64,000 nt of DNA, taken from an uncultured Rhodobiaceae bacterium. GTDB taxonomy: Bacteria; Pseudomonadota; Alphaproteobacteria; RS24. Within the stretch, counting starts at the first letter, position 1. Each line of letters begins with the position of its first letter. The translations under genes and the position numbers were made by a program. Of the stretch, positions 9,291-18,107 are shown piece after piece. The stretch is from contig CALCUM010000002.1 in the NCBI GenBank assembly GCA_937907245.1, positions 682,001 to 746,000 on the forward strand, read 5' to 3'. The notes beneath the pieces are model-generated. The model made no database searches, had not been told where the DNA came from, and was given only the letters and a program-made list of their open reading frames with translations.

Positions 9291-10169
9291 ATGAAACTGA
9301 TAATCTCATTTTTACAAGCACTGGCAGCGAAAATATTATTCTTCATCTATCGGCTAGCGGGCTTGCGGCTTGGCTCCTATCTCGGTGGCGTATTGGGGCG
9401 TTTGGCCGGCAAAATAACCCCAGAAGTCGCGCGCGCGGCCAACAATTTGAGCCAAGCCATGCCGCACCTTTGCAAGGCCCAACAAAAACAAGTTCTGACA
9501 GATTGCTTTGAACAAATCGGACGTGTCTTCGGTGAAATGGCCCATCTGCCCAAACTGGCACGCGAGGCCGAAAGCCGCTTGATTATCGAGGGCGAGGAAC
9601 ATGTTCGCCAAGCCCTGCCGAATGGCGGATCTGCCGTTTTTATCAGCGGTCATTTCTCAAACTGGGAAATGATTATGATGGGCGTTTTGCGCGTCGCGGG
9701 CGAAACGGGCGCTTTATATCGCGAACCCAAGAATGTGTTTTTGCGAAAATGGCTGCTCAAACAACGCGGGGCATTTATGCCGATTAAAATTCCCGCGGGG
9801 CCCGAAGGTTCGCGCGAGTTACTTAACACCCTAAAATCCGGCAAGCCGGTTGCTATGCTCATCGACCAAAACCTATCGCAAGGCGACCCGATATCCTTTA
9901 TGGGGCGCCAAACGCGCGCGCCTTCGGCGGCCATTAAATTAGCTCGCCGGTTTGATATTCCCGTCATCCCCACGCTCGTTCGACGCCGCAACGATGGGCC
10001 CGATAAAGCTCATTTCGTACAGTATTTTTTTCCCGCTTTTCGCGTCGCCCAAACCGCGGATATGTCCGCCGACATCGAGGCGGCTATGCGCCAGTCCTAT
10101 GATTTGTTCGAGCAATGGATTGAAGAGCGCCCGTCCGAATGGCTTTGGCCTTACAATCGCTGGAAGTAA
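9291..10169 (+). CDS. LpxL/HtrB-type lipid acyltransferase (copy 1)
   Basis: A 292-residue protein of the lipid A late acyltransferase (lysophospholipid acyltransferase) family. It has an N-terminal membrane anchor (residues ~5-25) and the catalytic H-x4-E motif in SGHFSNWEM. Substrate-pocket segments include LIDQNLSQGDPISFMGR and an RFDIPVIPTLVRRR strand. The C-terminus WLWPYNRWK is typical. Family members move an acyl chain from acyl-ACP to a lipid A precursor or another lipid at the inner membrane. A paralogue of identical length follows 81 bp downstream. Which lipid each copy acylates cannot be told from sequence alone. Confidence 0.85.
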   Translation: MKLIISFLQALAAKILFFIYRLAGLRLGSYLGGVLGRLAGKITPEVARAANNLSQAMPHLCKAQQKQVLTDCFEQIGRVFGEMAHLPKLAREAESRLIIEGEEHVRQALPNGGSAVFISGHFSNWEMIMMGVLRVAGETGALYREPKNVFLRKWLLKQRGAFMPIKIPAGPEGSRELLNTLKSGKPVAMLIDQNLSQGDPISFMGRQTRAPSAAIKLARRFDIPVIPTLVRRRNDGPDKAHFVQYFFPAFRVAQTADMSADIEAAMRQSYDLFEQWIEERPSEWLWPYNRWK

Positions 10170-10250
10170 CCTTCATCTCTTATTTGGTTTTTAGGCGCAT
10201 CTGGCTTATACAAGGACAAACTAAGCGCCGAAGGACGGAGATACGTTTTC

Positions 10251-11129
10251 ATGCAGCCCGCCTATTTCATTCAAGCTCAACTGGTCAAATTTATTCTGGC
10301 GATTTACCGCTTGGCAGGCGTGCGCATTGGCTCGTATTTAGGCGGACTTTTAGGACGCGGGCTCGGCAAAATTGCCCGCGAAGGCTCACTGGCAGATGAT
10401 AATATCGCCCAAGCCATGCCGCATGTTTCTGCGGCGGAACGCAAACAAATCTTGCGCCAATTCTGGGAGCAATTAGGCCGTTTCGTCGGCGAGTTCCCCC
10501 ATATGGCAAAATTCTCTCGCGAGGCCGAAACCCGCGTTTTGATTGAAGGCGCAGAACATGTCAAAGCCGCCCTGCCCGATGGCGGGCCAGCGATTTTTGT
10601 TTCCGGACATTTTTCCAATTGGGAAATGGGCATGCTCGGCGTCCGCCAATTGGTTGGCCGCGCTGGCGCGCTCTATCGACATGCCAACAACCCCTATATG
10701 GACAAATGGATTATTCGCCAGCGCAGCGCCTTCATGCCGCTGCAAATCCCGAAGGGGTCTAAGGGCGCCCGCACGATGATTTCCGAGCTTCAAAAAGGCA
10801 CTTCCATGGTTTTACTGGTCGATCAAAAACTTGGGACAGGCGACCCGATTACCTTTATGGGCCGAGAAACCAAAGCCCCTTCGGCGGCTGTAAAAATAGC
10901 GCGGCGTTTCGATATTCCAGTTATTCCGACCGTGGTTCGCCGCCGCCAAGACGGCCCGGACAAAGCCCATTTCGTGCAGCATTTCTTCCCTGCCATTCAC
11001 GTTGCCAAAACAGATGACGCCAAAGCAGATGTCGATGCGGCAATGCGCGAGGTTTATGATGCGATTGAAGGTTGGATTGAAACCAGCCCCCATGAGTGGC
11101 TGTGGGCGCACAATCGCTGGAAAGAATAG
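10251..11129 (+). CDS. LpxL/HtrB-type lipid acyltransferase (copy 2)
   Basis: A 292-residue tandem paralogue of the preceding gene, by eye well over half identical. The same catalytic segment SGHFSNWEM, the RFDIPVIPT strand, and the C-terminus WLWAHNRWKE are kept. There is an N-terminal membrane segment at residues ~8-25. Differences cluster in the N-terminus and around residues 135-200, the likely acyl/acceptor pocket. The pair probably arose by tandem duplication and may add successive acyl chains. Its stop codon (TAG) is directly followed by the stop of the convergent GT10 gene, with no spacer. Confidence 0.85.
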   Translation: MQPAYFIQAQLVKFILAIYRLAGVRIGSYLGGLLGRGLGKIAREGSLADDNIAQAMPHVSAAERKQILRQFWEQLGRFVGEFPHMAKFSREAETRVLIEGAEHVKAALPDGGPAIFVSGHFSNWEMGMLGVRQLVGRAGALYRHANNPYMDKWIIRQRSAFMPLQIPKGSKGARTMISELQKGTSMVLLVDQKLGTGDPITFMGRETKAPSAAVKIARRFDIPVIPTVVRRRQDGPDKAHFVQHFFPAIHVAKTDDAKADVDAAMREVYDAIEGWIETSPHEWLWAHNRWKE

Positions 11130-12170
11130 CTAGCTGATTTTACCTTCTAGGTAGCTGCCATAGTGTTTTCTTCCCCGACGGCGGGCACTGGTTTTGCCCA
11201 CGGCATAGCGCAAAAAAGTTGGCAAATCGCGGCGCTGCATAGCATGACGACTTAAAATTTTACCTGGCGCCTTTGGCACCTTTACTTTTGGCGCCTGCAG
11301 AATATGCTTCGCCACCAAATTGCCCAGATTATAATCTTCCAAAACCCGTCGCCGCGCTTCTACAATGGCTGGCAGGCGTTTCTCATAAGCCTTATCGACG
11401 ATGGCTCTCTCAATCGTCGCCAAAGCCGCCGCCTTATCGAGAATATCGAGGCGGATAAAACTCTCTTCGGGAAAATAGGCTTCCAGATTAGAACATCCGA
11501 CATAAAACGGCAGGCTGTACCCGAGGAAAGCATCCGATAGTTTTTCCGTCCAATGGTGCGCGCCAATATGGTTCTCAACCGCGATATGATAGCGATAGGC
11601 GTCTATGCCCTCTGCCTTATGTTCGACAAATTGATAGCCTTTGCCATAAACATCCACCTGCTCGCCCAGCCCATTGGCCAGCTCCACGAGAAACTCGGCA
11701 CGGCGATGGTGCAGCGTATGTTTTTGCGCTTTTGGAGAGCCAAACATGGATACCAATCCGGTTTTCTCTGGTGCCTTAGGGTGCGCATTGGCTTGCTCTA
11801 GCCCGCCATAAAACCAAACCCCGATGGGGGGCATGTCTCGGCGATTTCGATGGCGCAAAGCCTCTGGCTCATGGCTGGTCAACACCATACCAAATTGATC
11901 CATATAATCTTGACCATAAAATTTTACAGAAGACGGCTCATAGGTCAAAAGCACCGTGTTTTCTTGTGGGCAAGACAGCGTCTCGACGCCTAGCGACAAA
12001 CGCTCATCGGCGCGACTTGGCAGGTCGTCATAGACCACCAACCAGTCGTAATCACGCGCTTCAGGGTCTAACACCCATTCAATTTCATCCGCATGCGCCT
12101 GCGGTAAACTCAGAAACTGAAACGCAAAAACGGTATTTTTCGAAACAAACTTTATTCGGGACTTCTTCAT
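11130..12170 (-). CDS. GT10 (alpha-1,3-fucosyltransferase-like) glycosyltransferase
   Basis: A 346-residue protein. Its middle and C-terminal half match the glycosyltransferase family 10 core: AYRYHIAVEN (191-200), then W-TEK (207-210), LSDAFLGYSLPFYVGCSN and the ESFIRLD segment. These are the nucleotide-sugar-binding features of alpha-1,3-fucosyltransferases. The N-terminal third (the acceptor domain) is divergent, so the transferred sugar could be fucose or a related deoxy-hexose. It is probably cytoplasmic and involved in surface glycan synthesis, consistent with the acyltransferase pair it faces. The start has a good Shine-Dalgarno (TAGGAG). Confidence 0.8.
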   Translation of the reverse strand: MKKSRIKFVSKNTVFAFQFLSLPQAHADEIEWVLDPEARDYDWLVVYDDLPSRADERLSLGVETLSCPQENTVLLTYEPSSVKFYGQDYMDQFGMVLTSHEPEALRHRNRRDMPPIGVWFYGGLEQANAHPKAPEKTGLVSMFGSPKAQKHTLHHRRAEFLVELANGLGEQVDVYGKGYQFVEHKAEGIDAYRYHIAVENHIGAHHWTEKLSDAFLGYSLPFYVGCSNLEAYFPEESFIRLDILDKAAALATIERAIVDKAYEKRLPAIVEARRRVLEDYNLGNLVAKHILQAPKVKVPKAPGKILSRHAMQRRDLPTFLRYAVGKTSARRRGRKHYGSYLEGKIS

Positions 12171-14505: not shown

Positions 14506-14812
14506 TGCTTGCTCCCAAAATATTTGAAATAGCCTAGGCACAATTGCGATGAGAACCAAGCCCGTTTTGGTAAATTTTGCGCCTCAAGAAAAACGGGGGT
14601 AGACAGCCATATTTAATTTTCAGGGCGGCTATCCTTTAACCACAATAATCCTTGCTAATCGAGCTCTTACCTTTTTCCTTCATGCCTAATCCCTTGCATC
14701 TAAATTTCATTCGACTGTGAGATTATTTTTAAGTGGAGGCTGACCCAAACCTGCACTACCATTTGCTAAATGGCTCGCTGGTGCTTGCCGTGAGCAGGGG
14801 AGCAAAGAGACA
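14506..14812. other. Divergent intergenic region with hairpins before mtnP
   Basis: This 307-bp stretch separates the divergent thiolase and MTA-phosphorylase genes. I see no credible ORF. The 60 nt before mtnP contain two adjacent hairpins: CCATTT-GCT-AAATGG at 14759-14773, then CTCGC...GTGAG at 14774-14794 with an inner GG/CC pair. A GGGGAG ribosome site follows. No known riboswitch consensus was recognised. Confidence 0.5.
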
Positions 14813-15658
14813 ATGCTAGCAATTATTGGTGGGACAGGCCTGTATGAAATGGATGGCCTAGACGTAAAAGAAGAACTCAATGTCGCCACGCCTTTTGGGG
14901 CCCCTTCCGCTCCGGTGATAAAAGCCGAGTATGGCAATCGCGAAGTACTGTTTTTGCCGCGCCATGGTCGAGACCATGAGTTTTTGCCCCATGAAGTAAA
15001 TTACCGCGCCAATATTTTTGCACTCAAAAAACTAGGGGCCCGACAAGTGCTTGGCTTTTCGGCTGTCGGCAGCCTGCGCGAGGAAATTCACCCAGGAGAT
15101 TTTGCCATCCCCTCGCAATATTTTGACTTTGTAAAAGGCAATCGCGAACGCACTTTTTTTGGTGAGGGGGTCGCCGCCCATGTTTCCACCGCCGAGCCCG
15201 TCTGCCCAAACATGACGGCATGGATCGCCAGCAAAGCCGAACAGATGAACCTTCCCCTTCATATAAACAAAACCTATGCAGGGGTGGACGGCCCGCGCCT
15301 CGGCACCAAGGCTGAAAGCAATTTTTTGCGCGCCGCCGAGTGTGACCTTGTGGGCATGACAAATGTGCCAGAAGTCTTCTTGGCCCGCGAAGCCCAGCTT
15401 TGCTATGCGACCATTGGCATTGCCACAGATTATGATTGCTGGATGGATGACCCAAGCCAGCATGTCAGCGTCGCCGATGTTATTTCGCGCTTTGGCGAAA
15501 GCCTAAGCCAAGCCAAAGAATTATTACTGGCCTTGCTCGAAACCCCATTGCCCGAGGCCGAAGCAAGTTACCGCGAAACGCTTGCAACGGCTCTGCTTAC
15601 CCCGCCTGAAAACATCCCGGAGCCAAAGCGCGAACTATTGGAAGTGCTATGCGCGTAG
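14813..15658 (+). CDS. mtnP: 5'-methylthioadenosine phosphorylase-like protein
   Basis: A 281-residue purine nucleoside phosphorylase of the MTAP/PNP (family 2) type. It has the phosphate loop IIGGTGLY, PRHGRDHEFLPHEVNYRAN, SAVGSLREEIHPGDF, VGMTNVPEVFLAREA, and DYDCW with Asp206/Asp208. MTAP splits 5'-methylthioadenosine to adenine and 5-methylthioribose-1-phosphate. The usual EGPxFSxRAES segment here reads GVDGPRLGTKAES (157-169), altering positions that pack against the purine in human MTAP, so the substrate may differ. Its 3' end overlaps the next gene by 10 bp, implying translational coupling with two sugar/nucleotidyl transferase-like genes instead of methionine salvage genes. Confidence 0.82.
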   Translation: MLAIIGGTGLYEMDGLDVKEELNVATPFGAPSAPVIKAEYGNREVLFLPRHGRDHEFLPHEVNYRANIFALKKLGARQVLGFSAVGSLREEIHPGDFAIPSQYFDFVKGNRERTFFGEGVAAHVSTAEPVCPNMTAWIASKAEQMNLPLHINKTYAGVDGPRLGTKAESNFLRAAECDLVGMTNVPEVFLAREAQLCYATIGIATDYDCWMDDPSQHVSVADVISRFGESLSQAKELLLALLETPLPEAEASYRETLATALLTPPENIPEPKRELLEVLCA

Positions 15659-16245
15659 CCGTCTCGGTTTCAGTTATCATTCCCATGGCAGTGCAGGAGC
15701 CAGAGCCGACCGCCCTCCTCGACCAACTGCCGCCCGACATAGAAATCATTCTGTCGCAAGAGGCAGGCCGGGCGGCGAGCCTCAACGCGGGGGCTGCGAA
15801 AGCTAAGGGCGCTTACTTATGGTTTCTACATGCCGATTCTAGCCTGCCCGATGACGCCTGGCAAAAGCTCCAGCAAGCCATTGCCGATAAGCCAAAGGCT
15901 TTGCACTATTTTGATTTGGCCTTTGCGGGCGGCAGCTGGCTTATGAAAATAAACAGCTGGGGGGCCAATATGCGCTCACGGTTTTTTGGTTGCCCTTTTG
16001 GTGACCAAGCGTTTTGCATCGAAAAACAGCTATTTGAAGCCTTGGGTGGGTACCCTGAAACAGCACCTTATGGGGAAGACCATTTGTTTGTCTGGCAAGC
16101 TCATAAAGCCGACGTCAAACTCAACCGCATAGCGGCAAGACTGATCACCAGTGCGCGCAAATATCAGCAAAATGGCTGGCTCAAAACCACCCTGCTGCAT
16201 CAGTATTTATGGCTCAAACAATGGATGCATGTGAAATGCCAATAG
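15649..16245 (+). CDS. Glycosyltransferase, rSAM/selenodomain-associated transferase 2-like (TIGR04283 type)
   Basis: A 198-residue GT-A fold (family 2) glycosyltransferase. It opens with the nucleotide-binding strand VSVIIPMAV, has GRAASLNAGAAKAKG (40-54) and the metal-binding LHADSSLP (60-67). The later FGCPFGDQAFCI and ALGGYPE...GEDHLFVW segments are typical of TIGR04283 proteins. At 198 residues it is slightly short for that family, whose members are usually about 220; the region between residues 15 and 30 is compressed. It lies between mtnP (10-bp overlap) and the TIGR04282-type gene (overlap of 10-37 bp depending on start). TIGR04283 proteins are named for co-occurrence with a radical SAM/selenodomain enzyme. 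Confidence 0.8.
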   Translation: MRVAVSVSVIIPMAVQEPEPTALLDQLPPDIEIILSQEAGRAASLNAGAAKAKGAYLWFLHADSSLPDDAWQKLQQAIADKPKALHYFDLAFAGGSWLMKINSWGANMRSRFFGCPFGDQAFCIEKQLFEALGGYPETAPYGEDHLFVWQAHKADVKLNRIAARLITSARKYQQNGWLKTTLLHQYLWLKQWMHVKCQ

Positions 16246-16940
16246 CGCGAGACCCTCGCCCCGTGGAACAAATTGGTTTGGGAATTTTTGCCAAAACAGC
16301 CGCGCTTTCGCCCGTAAAAACACGCTTGGCCGCGAGCCTTGGTAAAGCGGAAGCCGAGCAGTTTTATCAGTTAAGTGTTCTGGCAATTGAGCAGCTGGCT
16401 CTGGCTTTACCCAAGGCCATCCGCCCGCATTGGGCCATCGCAGAAGCCGACGGACTTGACCAACCTCAATGGCAGAAGTTGCCGCGTTTTTGGACGGGCG
16501 ATGGCGATTTGGGCGCGCGCCTGCATCAGGTCTATACCAAATTACGCCAAAGCCATGGCGCAGCCATGTTGATGGGAACCGACAGCCCGCAATTGACGCC
16601 TAGCCTGCTCGAGGAAGCGCAAAAGCATCTCGTACAAGACCCCAACGCCATCGTGCTTGGCCCGTGTTCTGATGGCGGGTTTTATTTATTTGCTGGCGGC
16701 GTAGACATTCCGCAATCTTGCTGGACGAGCGTAACCTACAGCGAAAGCACGACGCGACAGCAATTGGTTGGCCAGCTCCGTCAACTGGACTTAGAAATTC
16801 ACTATCTGCCCGAGCAGCAAGATGTGGATGTGGCGGCAGATTTGGTTGAGCTGCGCGAAAGCTTGGCTGCTGAGGCGAGCTTACTCTCGGCTCAAAAACA
16901 ATTGCTAGACTGGTTAAGCCGAACAGCTACCGCCCCCTAA
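16209..16940 (+). CDS. DUF2064 / rSAM-associated transferase 1-like protein (TIGR04282 type)
   Basis: A 243-residue GT-A/nucleotidyltransferase-fold protein of the DUF2064 family, distantly CofC-like. It has LGIFAKTAALSPVKTRLA (24-41), GTDSPQLTP (123-131) and GPCSDGGFYLFA (151-162), the three hallmark segments. The start may be 16209 or the ATG at 16236; neither has a strong ribosome site, and both overlap the upstream gene. The 3' end overlaps the convergent radical SAM gene by 27 bp. By analogy with arsenosugar-type clusters, it may activate or transfer a ribose derivative, but this is inference. Confidence 0.8.
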   Translation: MAQTMDACEMPIARDPRPVEQIGLGIFAKTAALSPVKTRLAASLGKAEAEQFYQLSVLAIEQLALALPKAIRPHWAIAEADGLDQPQWQKLPRFWTGDGDLGARLHQVYTKLRQSHGAAMLMGTDSPQLTPSLLEEAQKHLVQDPNAIVLGPCSDGGFYLFAGGVDIPQSCWTSVTYSESTTRQQLVGQLRQLDLEIHYLPEQQDVDVAADLVELRESLAAEASLLSAQKQLLDWLSRTATAP

Positions 16941-17837
16941 AACGCAAAATTTTGCACAATGCGCATGGTTCAGTTTCACCCGCTCACTGGCTTGCTTCAG
17001 CGTAGTGCCAATTTCAAATTCTTCTTCATACGGCAGTAAGGTACAGGCCAGCACAGTGGGTTTTTCGGCACCTTTGCGCTTCACCACCATGCGCGAGGTA
17101 GCGCACATCATGTCGTTCGGGTCTACGTTCAAAATGCCCCAGCATTCGGTGGTGATTTCAGGCACTTCCGCGCCTTCATCCATTTCGGGAAACAGCATTA
17201 ATTCTTTTGGATTTTGGGCGTCTACGCTCACGCCTAATGATTTAAAAAGACGCGCAAACCCATGGCGCAAATCGTCTTCTTTATCGTTCCAGCGCGTGCG
17301 GCCCGCAACATCGATGGTAAAGCCGAACGCGGACAGCCATTGAAGCCCTTTCACCATAGGCTCCCATGTGTTTTCGCCGCGTTCTTCTTCATGCAGGGCT
17401 TGGCTAAAGTGATCGACCGAAATGCGCAGCACCATTTGGCTGCCATAGCGTGACAGCACGCTCAGGAGAGCTTCGCGTTTATGCTCCATGGGCTTCATGG
17501 CATTGGTTAACACCAGAAGCTCAAACCCGCGCTCTAAAATCAACTCGATGATTGGCATAATATCGGGGTTCATGAAAGGCTCCCCGCCGGTGATGCCAAT
17601 TTGTTGCGTACCTAAACCCTCTTCGGCAATTTCATCCAAATAGCTGCGCACATCTGCCAGCGTTAGATACACCAACCGATCATTCGTCGGGCTAGATTCG
17701 ATGTAACAATGCCCACACTGAATATTGCATAAAGTGCCTGTATTGAGCCAAAGGGTCTCGAGCTTGGTTAAATCGACCCAAGCGCGCGCCTCGCCATCGG
17801 CGGTAACATCCGGATTTACAAATTTCATCATAGCCAC
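16914..17837 (-). CDS. Radical SAM protein of unknown function with C-terminal Cys-rich region
   Basis: A 307-residue radical SAM enzyme. Cys37, Cys41 and Cys44 (TLCNIQCGHCY) form the CxxxCxxC site for the [4Fe-4S]-SAM cluster. GITGGEPF (81-88) is the SAM-binding GGE motif. Six more cysteines (232, 245, 265, 294, 298, 305) lie in the C-terminal third, ending HCAKFCVLGGGSCSA, and could hold an auxiliary Fe-S cluster of SPASM/twitch type. It is not the classic ArsS/selenodomain protein, whose C-terminal domain differs. The start could be GTG at 17837 or the ATGs at 17831/17828. It converges on, and overlaps by 27 bp, the TIGR04282-type gene. Substrate unknown. Confidence 0.82.
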   Translation of the reverse strand: MAMMKFVNPDVTADGEARAWVDLTKLETLWLNTGTLCNIQCGHCYIESSPTNDRLVYLTLADVRSYLDEIAEEGLGTQQIGITGGEPFMNPDIMPIIELILERGFELLVLTNAMKPMEHKREALLSVLSRYGSQMVLRISVDHFSQALHEEERGENTWEPMVKGLQWLSAFGFTIDVAGRTRWNDKEDDLRHGFARLFKSLGVSVDAQNPKELMLFPEMDEGAEVPEITTECWGILNVDPNDMMCATSRMVVKRKGAEKPTVLACTLLPYEEEFEIGTTLKQASERVKLNHAHCAKFCVLGGGSCSA

Positions 17838-17904
17838 TTGCGGTTATCTCAAAAGGAACTTTTATCTTAAAGTTTCAGGCTCTTATTTACCAGTTATGCT
17901 TTCA

Positions 17905-18000
17905 AGAAAGGCTGGGATGGCGACCCCATAACCTTGTTCCTTAAGGGCGCGCATTCAGCTTGCTTTTGGACAAGCGTCGCATGTGTCGTCACAGCCCTAT
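17905..18000 (-). other. Possible structured RNA or gene remnant downstream of tRNA-Pro
   Basis: On the minus strand this segment starts GGGCTGTGACGACACATGC and ends GGGTCGCCATCCCAGCC. The ends can pair (GGCTG/CAGCC and CGAC/GTCG), with an internal GCTTG/CAAGC hairpin. Parts recall the 3' half of 6S RNA (ACGACACAT, CCTTAAGGAACAAGG), but tRNA-Pro occupies the place where the 5' arm should be. One frame also encodes a 23-residue protein-like stretch (MRALKEQGYGVAIPAFLE...). I cannot decide between an RNA, a remnant and chance. Confidence 0.3.
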
Positions 18001-18030: not shown

Positions 18031-18107
18031 TGGTCGGGGCTGCAGGACTCGAACCTGCGACCCCCTGGTCCCAAACCAGGTGCGCTACCAGACTGCGCCA
18101 AGCCCCG
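18031..18107 (-). tRNA. tRNA-Pro (anticodon TGG)
   Basis: A complete 77-nt cloverleaf on the minus strand with encoded CCA. The acceptor is CGGGGCT / AGCCCCG. The anticodon stem CCTGG/CCAGG encloses the loop TTTGGGA with TGG, which reads CCA/CCG/CCU. The T-loop is TTCGAGT. A second tRNA-Pro (GGG) lies at 33090. Confidence 0.97.

Follow-up and report, generated by a model that had tools for sequence, protein, structure and literature searches.

Arsenosugar gene clusters combine the radical S-adenosylmethionine (SAM) enzyme ArsS (TIGR04167) and the methyltransferase ArsM with two transferase families, TIGR04282 and TIGR04283, which NCBI names for arsenosugar biosynthesis. ArsS is reported, as cited in PMC12159101, to adenosylate arsenic. 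The HpnH/HpnG hopanoid side-chain pathway likewise proceeds by radical adenosylation followed by adenine removal by a phosphorylase (PMC12583986). In addition, methylthioadenosine phosphorylases (MTAPs) can accept 5'-deoxyadenosine as a substrate, and gene clusters for the salvage of 5-deoxyribose are known (PMC6079011). Here we describe a four-gene cassette in a 64,000-nucleotide stretch (hereafter the window) of an uncultured Rhodobiaceae bacterium (contig CALCUM010000002.1, positions 682,001 to 746,000), whose 1.80-Mb genome, in 3 contigs, is reported 100% complete. The cassette places an MtnP-like nucleoside phosphorylase and two arsenosugar-type transferases beside a radical SAM protein, rSAM2, and probably turns part of SAM into a modified ribose that is attached to another molecule.

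The forward strand carries mtnP (14813–15658; 281 residues; TIGR01694, PF01048), a TIGR04283-like GT2-fold glycosyltransferase gene (GT; 15649–16245; 198 residues) and a gene for a TIGR04282-like DUF2064 protein with a CofC-related nucleotidyltransferase fold (16209–16940; 243 residues), which passes the Pfam DUF2064 gathering score (PF09837, 62 bits). rSAM2 lies on the reverse strand (16914–17837; 307 residues; PF04055, 71.7 bits). As originally predicted, mtnP and GT overlap by 10 bp (15649–15658), and the DUF2064 gene converges on rSAM2 with a 27-bp overlap (16914–16940). GT and DUF2064 overlap by 37 bp counting from ATG 16209, or by 10 bp from an alternative ATG at 16236. The listed rSAM2 start is GTG 17837; ATG 17828 or 17831 is the likely start because relatives begin with MKF. 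The G+C content of the block, 0.50–0.55, is no different from that of its surroundings.

Linkage and inheritance of the cassette

Within the window's family, the four genes come all or none. They are adjacent in five of 28 genomes (the window genome, G000, and G001, G004, G005 and G018). The remaining 23 yielded none of them, although several family genomes are incomplete and some absences may be false. In G018, which belongs to another genus, identity to the window is 83–87% (blastn) and confined to 14671–17827, a conserved 3.2-kb stretch with unrelated flanks. In G005, of the same genus, the shared stretch (14734–17923; 87.7% identity by blastn) has its left flank in common with the window and a different right flank. 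We propose that the four genes move horizontally as a single cassette; this is part of an overall explanation, developed below, that taken jointly has about an even chance of being correct. A tRNA-Pro gene (18031–18107) lies just past the rSAM2 end of the cassette, near the point where synteny with G005 ends, and may mark a site of exchange. The G018 copy of the DUF2064 gene is interrupted; mutation or insertion was considered and rejected, as the interruption is a 310-N assembly gap whose edges carry a 22-bp repeat (L140:8977–9286).

The association extends well beyond the family. We examined 144 genomes, with most families other than the window's own represented by a single genome. Of these genomes, 38 carry an rSAM2 ortholog (38–96% identity, E<1e-49). 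DUF2064 genes are present in 36 of the 38 carriers and in 8 of the 106 other genomes (Fisher p 7e-19), GT in 37 and 9 (p 1e-19; matches weaker than about 1e-7 left out), and MtnP in 37 and 24 (p 1e-12). Computed with one genome per family, these p values are a guide only, since families are not independent draws.

Physical clustering recurs as well. A scan of genome contigs recovered rSAM2 at 582 loci or more. These lie in alpha- and gammaproteobacteria, and also in isolates and metagenome-assembled genomes (MAGs) labelled SAR324, Latescibacterota, Gemmatimonadetes and Enemella, where MAG labels may reflect misbinning. We scored partners within 10 kb at 80 of these loci, all in other genomes: GT was found at 20, DUF2064 at 18 and MtnP at 15, and all four genes cluster at 11, in both alpha- and gammaproteobacteria. 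The window's convergent order recurs at L165, L209, L237, L168, L172 and L175, with hosts including Cocleimonas flava, Aliidiomarina iranensis and a Porticoccaceae MAG; a codirectional order, rSAM2-MtnP-GT-DUF2064, is found at L171, L173 and L178. Across the 144 genomes, GT-DUF2064 pairs are often found away from rSAM2. The linkage of the four genes is real and goes beyond chance, because two relatives share the cassette at 83–88% DNA identity and the same gene set is clustered in other alpha- and gammaproteobacteria. Some rSAM2 loci also neighbour a transporter-like gene (cluster C13), ApaG, a pyridoxal-phosphate enzyme or enoyl-CoA hydratases; these apparently reflect lineage gene order and were rejected as partners.

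Fusions and additional partners

A metallophosphoesterase (Metallophos_2) of a family without a name occurs at 12 loci and adjoins or overlaps rSAM2 at nine of them. The two are fused in a single 603-residue open frame at L231:9104–10915, and in G121 (C26) both matches fall in what their coordinates indicate is one 718-residue frame. Among the 144 genomes the family is almost confined to those with rSAM2 or ArsS, occurring in 12: ten that carry rSAM2, the ArsS genome G041, and G079. It is absent from the window genome. A second kind of fusion joins GT and DUF2064 in one 441-residue protein (G124). A mercuric-reductase-like flavoprotein lies near rSAM2 at 9 of the 80 loci and near ArsS at about half of 20, so that flavoprotein and phosphoesterase are neighbours common to the rSAM2 and ArsS systems.

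A dedicated phosphorylase shared with an ArsS cluster

The window MtnP resembles methionine-salvage MtnP in fold and catalytic motifs, passing the MTAP cut-off (280.2 bits; cut-off 274.85), and cluster MtnPs keep the general MTAP motifs R50, H51, M182, D206 and D208. Nevertheless, in a tree of 46 MtnP proteins, 15 cluster MtnPs and that of G041 form one group apart from 24 unlinked MtnPs (support 100/100, branch 1.15). Clusters L187, L193 and L198 hold a housekeeping-type MtnP instead, and three other ArsS-linked MtnPs fall between the two groups.

We compared the binding pockets at motif level, through alignments to archaeal MTAPs and others. Within the GPRLG motif (residues 160–164; 15290–15304, forward strand), R162, L163 and G164 are present in all 16 cluster-clade MtnPs, whereas all 27 housekeeping-type MtnPs compared have Q-F-S. 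A one-residue insertion, P214 (15452–15454, forward strand), directly follows the conserved DYDCW in 15 of the 16 and is a gap in all 27. In MTAP structures the changed positions lie close to the purine and to the 5' side, and the cluster MtnP substrate therefore probably differs from methylthioadenosine. Long antisense open reading frames within mtnP (15024–15463) are open in relatives at 71–76% identity and most likely arise from codon usage.

G041 is the only one of the 144 relatives with ArsS above cut-off. Its ArsS cluster contains DUF2064, the flavoprotein, ArsS and the phosphoesterase, together with an MtnP and a GT that are 56% and 48% identical, respectively, to their window counterparts. 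In the GT tree, a quick tree with several long branches, the window GT groups with those of MtnP-linked clusters and of the G041 ArsS cluster (support 100). Since both MtnP and GT of G041 fall in window-type clades, the same downstream module stands beside ArsS and beside rSAM2. The original prediction stood to fail if the four genes were rarely neighbours in related genomes; it survived: the genes co-occur and cluster, fusions of two kinds exist and the cluster MtnPs have a clade of their own, all of which speaks for one pathway.

rSAM2 is a distant relative of ArsS

rSAM2 passes only the Pfam Radical_SAM model. It reaches no NCBIfam cut-off, the best match being 92.5 bits, far under the required 380, to the Rv1681-type model NF049973, for whose members we know of no function. 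Profile comparison aligns residues 9–206 with ArsS (probability 98.8, E 5.7e-17), and on this basis rSAM2 is a distant, non-orthologous homolog of ArsS. Its CxxxCxxC iron-sulphur motif (C37, C41, C44; 17706–17729, reverse strand) and cysteine-rich C-terminal tail (C245, C265, C294, C298, C305; 16923–17105, reverse strand) are invariant in 22 sequences. The cysteine order of the tail, MC..C..HC..C..SC, is similar in ArsS; aligned alone with hhalign, the tails give E 4e-4, over 16 columns only, against 0.21 for a reversed control, a likeness that is no more than suggestive.

The predicted rSAM2 structure is of high confidence (predicted local distance difference test 90.9). Its nearest solved structures, which include SPASM/twitch enzymes, are BlsE, SuiB and SkfB; because template-modelling scores are 0.53–0.59 and root-mean-square deviations large, the fold does not decide function. 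The HpnH/HpnG pathway shares the logic of adenosylation followed by a phosphorylase. However, HpnH (TIGR03470, cut-off 225) is not among the matches listed for the window rSAM2, and relatives score about 29–34 bits (28.9 for the L131 ortholog); the cassette phosphorylase is of MTAP type, and no hopanoid genes were seen adjoining. The literature searched contained no account of the rSAM2 family or of DUF2064 function.

A proposed pathway and its alternatives

From this linkage, co-inheritance, homology to ArsS and shared module, we infer the following reactions. rSAM2 would cleave SAM, and the resulting 5'-deoxyadenosyl radical would join a soft acceptor, for which trivalent (methylated) arsenic is the likeliest candidate, to give a 5'-substituted adenosine. 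The cluster-specific MtnP would then free adenine to leave a 5-substituted ribose 1-phosphate, which the DUF2064 protein would activate to a nucleotide sugar and the GT would transfer to an acceptor, for example glycerol or a phospholipid. We give even chances to this scheme, an ArsS-type pathway making 5-substituted ribose from SAM with a non-orthologous radical SAM enzyme. The original prediction, which outlined a similar chain, is partly supported: the linkage speaks for a single pathway, and the reactions and product remain predicted ones. rSAM2 loci resemble ArsS clusters in their MtnP, GT, DUF2064, flavoprotein and phosphoesterase neighbours, in the radical SAM core and, more tentatively, in the cysteine order of the tail.

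Several observations weigh against an ArsS-type pathway. The window rSAM2 scores 70 bits against ArsS TIGR04167, far under the required 300, and ArsS proper is absent; the full-length profile alignment stops short of the C-terminal tail. The view that rSAM2 is not ArsS-like thus stands as to the family cut-off and falls as to the homologous core and, more tentatively, the tail. The transferases, which do lie with a nucleoside phosphorylase beside a radical SAM gene, had been labelled TIGR04283- and TIGR04282-type: these are the nearest families, and both scores just miss the cut-offs (171.5 of 182 bits for GT; 124.8 of 134 for the DUF2064 protein). At 43 of the 80 rSAM2 loci there is no scored partner gene in the stretch examined, many of these stretches ending early at contig ends. 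To our knowledge, no enzyme activity is known for window-type proteins.

The distribution of ArsM bears on arsenic in particular. The NCBIfam ArsM model (270 residues) alone missed types of 350 and about 390 residues, and a second profile was added. ArsM was found neither in the window genome (E<=1e-15) nor in 30 of the 38 rSAM2 genomes among relatives, and ArsM-like genes at E<=1e-20 occur in 14 of 21 ArsS genomes against 8 of 16 chosen rSAM2 genomes (7 of 21 and 6 of 16 for strong matches alone). This low rate is real and also counts against arsenic. On the other side, ArsM lies in or beside the rSAM2 cluster at L172, L187, L193 and G142; ArsM-like genes occur in 8 of 38 rSAM2 genomes against 3 of 106 others (p 0.001); and one ArsM subtype occurs in G036, G043, G085 and G123, all rSAM2 carriers. 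Arsenic is not excluded by a missing ArsM, because G041, a genuine ArsS carrier, shows none either. The original argument from the lack of ArsM to a different product is accordingly correct about this genome and weak as evidence. Uptake of external methylated arsenic would reconcile the low ArsM rate, though this is speculation. Arsenic is the leading candidate substrate. Separately, four alphaproteobacteria (L294 to L297), all rSAM2 carriers, encode ArsM-like methyltransferases near NF040538 (328–380 bits, cut-off 500) that are unlinked to the cassette.

The same pathway logic could also run with a 5' substituent other than arsenic, in which case rSAM2 would adenosylate some other nucleophile or an organic radical acceptor and the product would be another ribosyl lipid or small molecule. 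We regard this as possible, if tentative. It would suit a family separate from ArsS, found mostly in genomes without ArsM, the window's included, and an MtnP remodelled clade-wide in its base- and 5'-side motifs; it sits less easily with a genuine ArsS cluster contributing members to the MtnP and GT clades, with ArsM inside several rSAM2 clusters and with a cysteine tail suggestive of ArsS.

Two further accounts would dissolve the pathway. rSAM2 might modify an unrelated target such as a peptide, the kind of target on which SPASM/twitch enzymes of similar fold act, with MtnP clearing by-product 5'-deoxyadenosine and the transferases serving a cell-surface glycan. SPASM/twitch enzymes do figure among its best structural neighbours, and the action of MTAPs on 5'-deoxyadenosine, together with existing 5-deoxyribose salvage clusters (PMC6079011), offers a precedent for using a phosphorylase on a radical SAM-derived nucleoside. 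Yet the cassette has activating and transferring enzymes where those clusters have a kinase, isomerase and aldolase, which it lacks. Moreover, MtnP follows rSAM2 less closely than GT and DUF2064 do, and ArsS, an adenosyl-transfer enzyme, has these same partners. No gene for a precursor peptide came to notice, though no systematic search for one was made; we consider this account improbable. That a housekeeping methionine-salvage mtnP has a radical SAM gene and unrelated transferases as neighbours by chance is very improbable indeed. The window MtnP passes the MTAP cut-off and, as the only MtnP found in its genome, may also serve methylthioadenosine removal. Chance is rejected by the MtnP tree and distribution: the enzyme belongs to a separate clade, and no MtnP of any kind was detected in 23 family members. 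The genes' all-or-none inheritance, their repeated clustering in two classes and the co-occurrence statistics point the same way.

Surroundings of the cassette

Two neighbouring lysophospholipid-acyltransferase-like genes (9291–11129; 292 residues each) form a tandem duplication, and G005 has both. They are followed on the reverse strand by a GT10 (fucosyltransferase)-like gene (11133–12170) with a weak Pfam match of 37.9 bits.

Implications

rSAM2, with at least 582 loci, reaches no curated family model, and it is by far a more frequent companion of the "arsenosugar" transferases in alphaproteobacteria than ArsS is (38 against 1 of 144 genomes). It might, on the tentative non-arsenic reading, head a widespread undescribed pathway in alpha- and gammaproteobacteria in which a non-arsenic 5-substituted ribose glycosylates lipids or metabolites, which would be a new class of SAM-derived glycoconjugate. 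Being small, at four genes and 3.2 kb, the cassette is directly testable. Should rSAM2 make something other than an arsenosugar, many arsenosugar annotations would be misleading; should it provide a second arsenosugar route, biological arsenic-sugar synthesis would be much wider than ArsS suggests.

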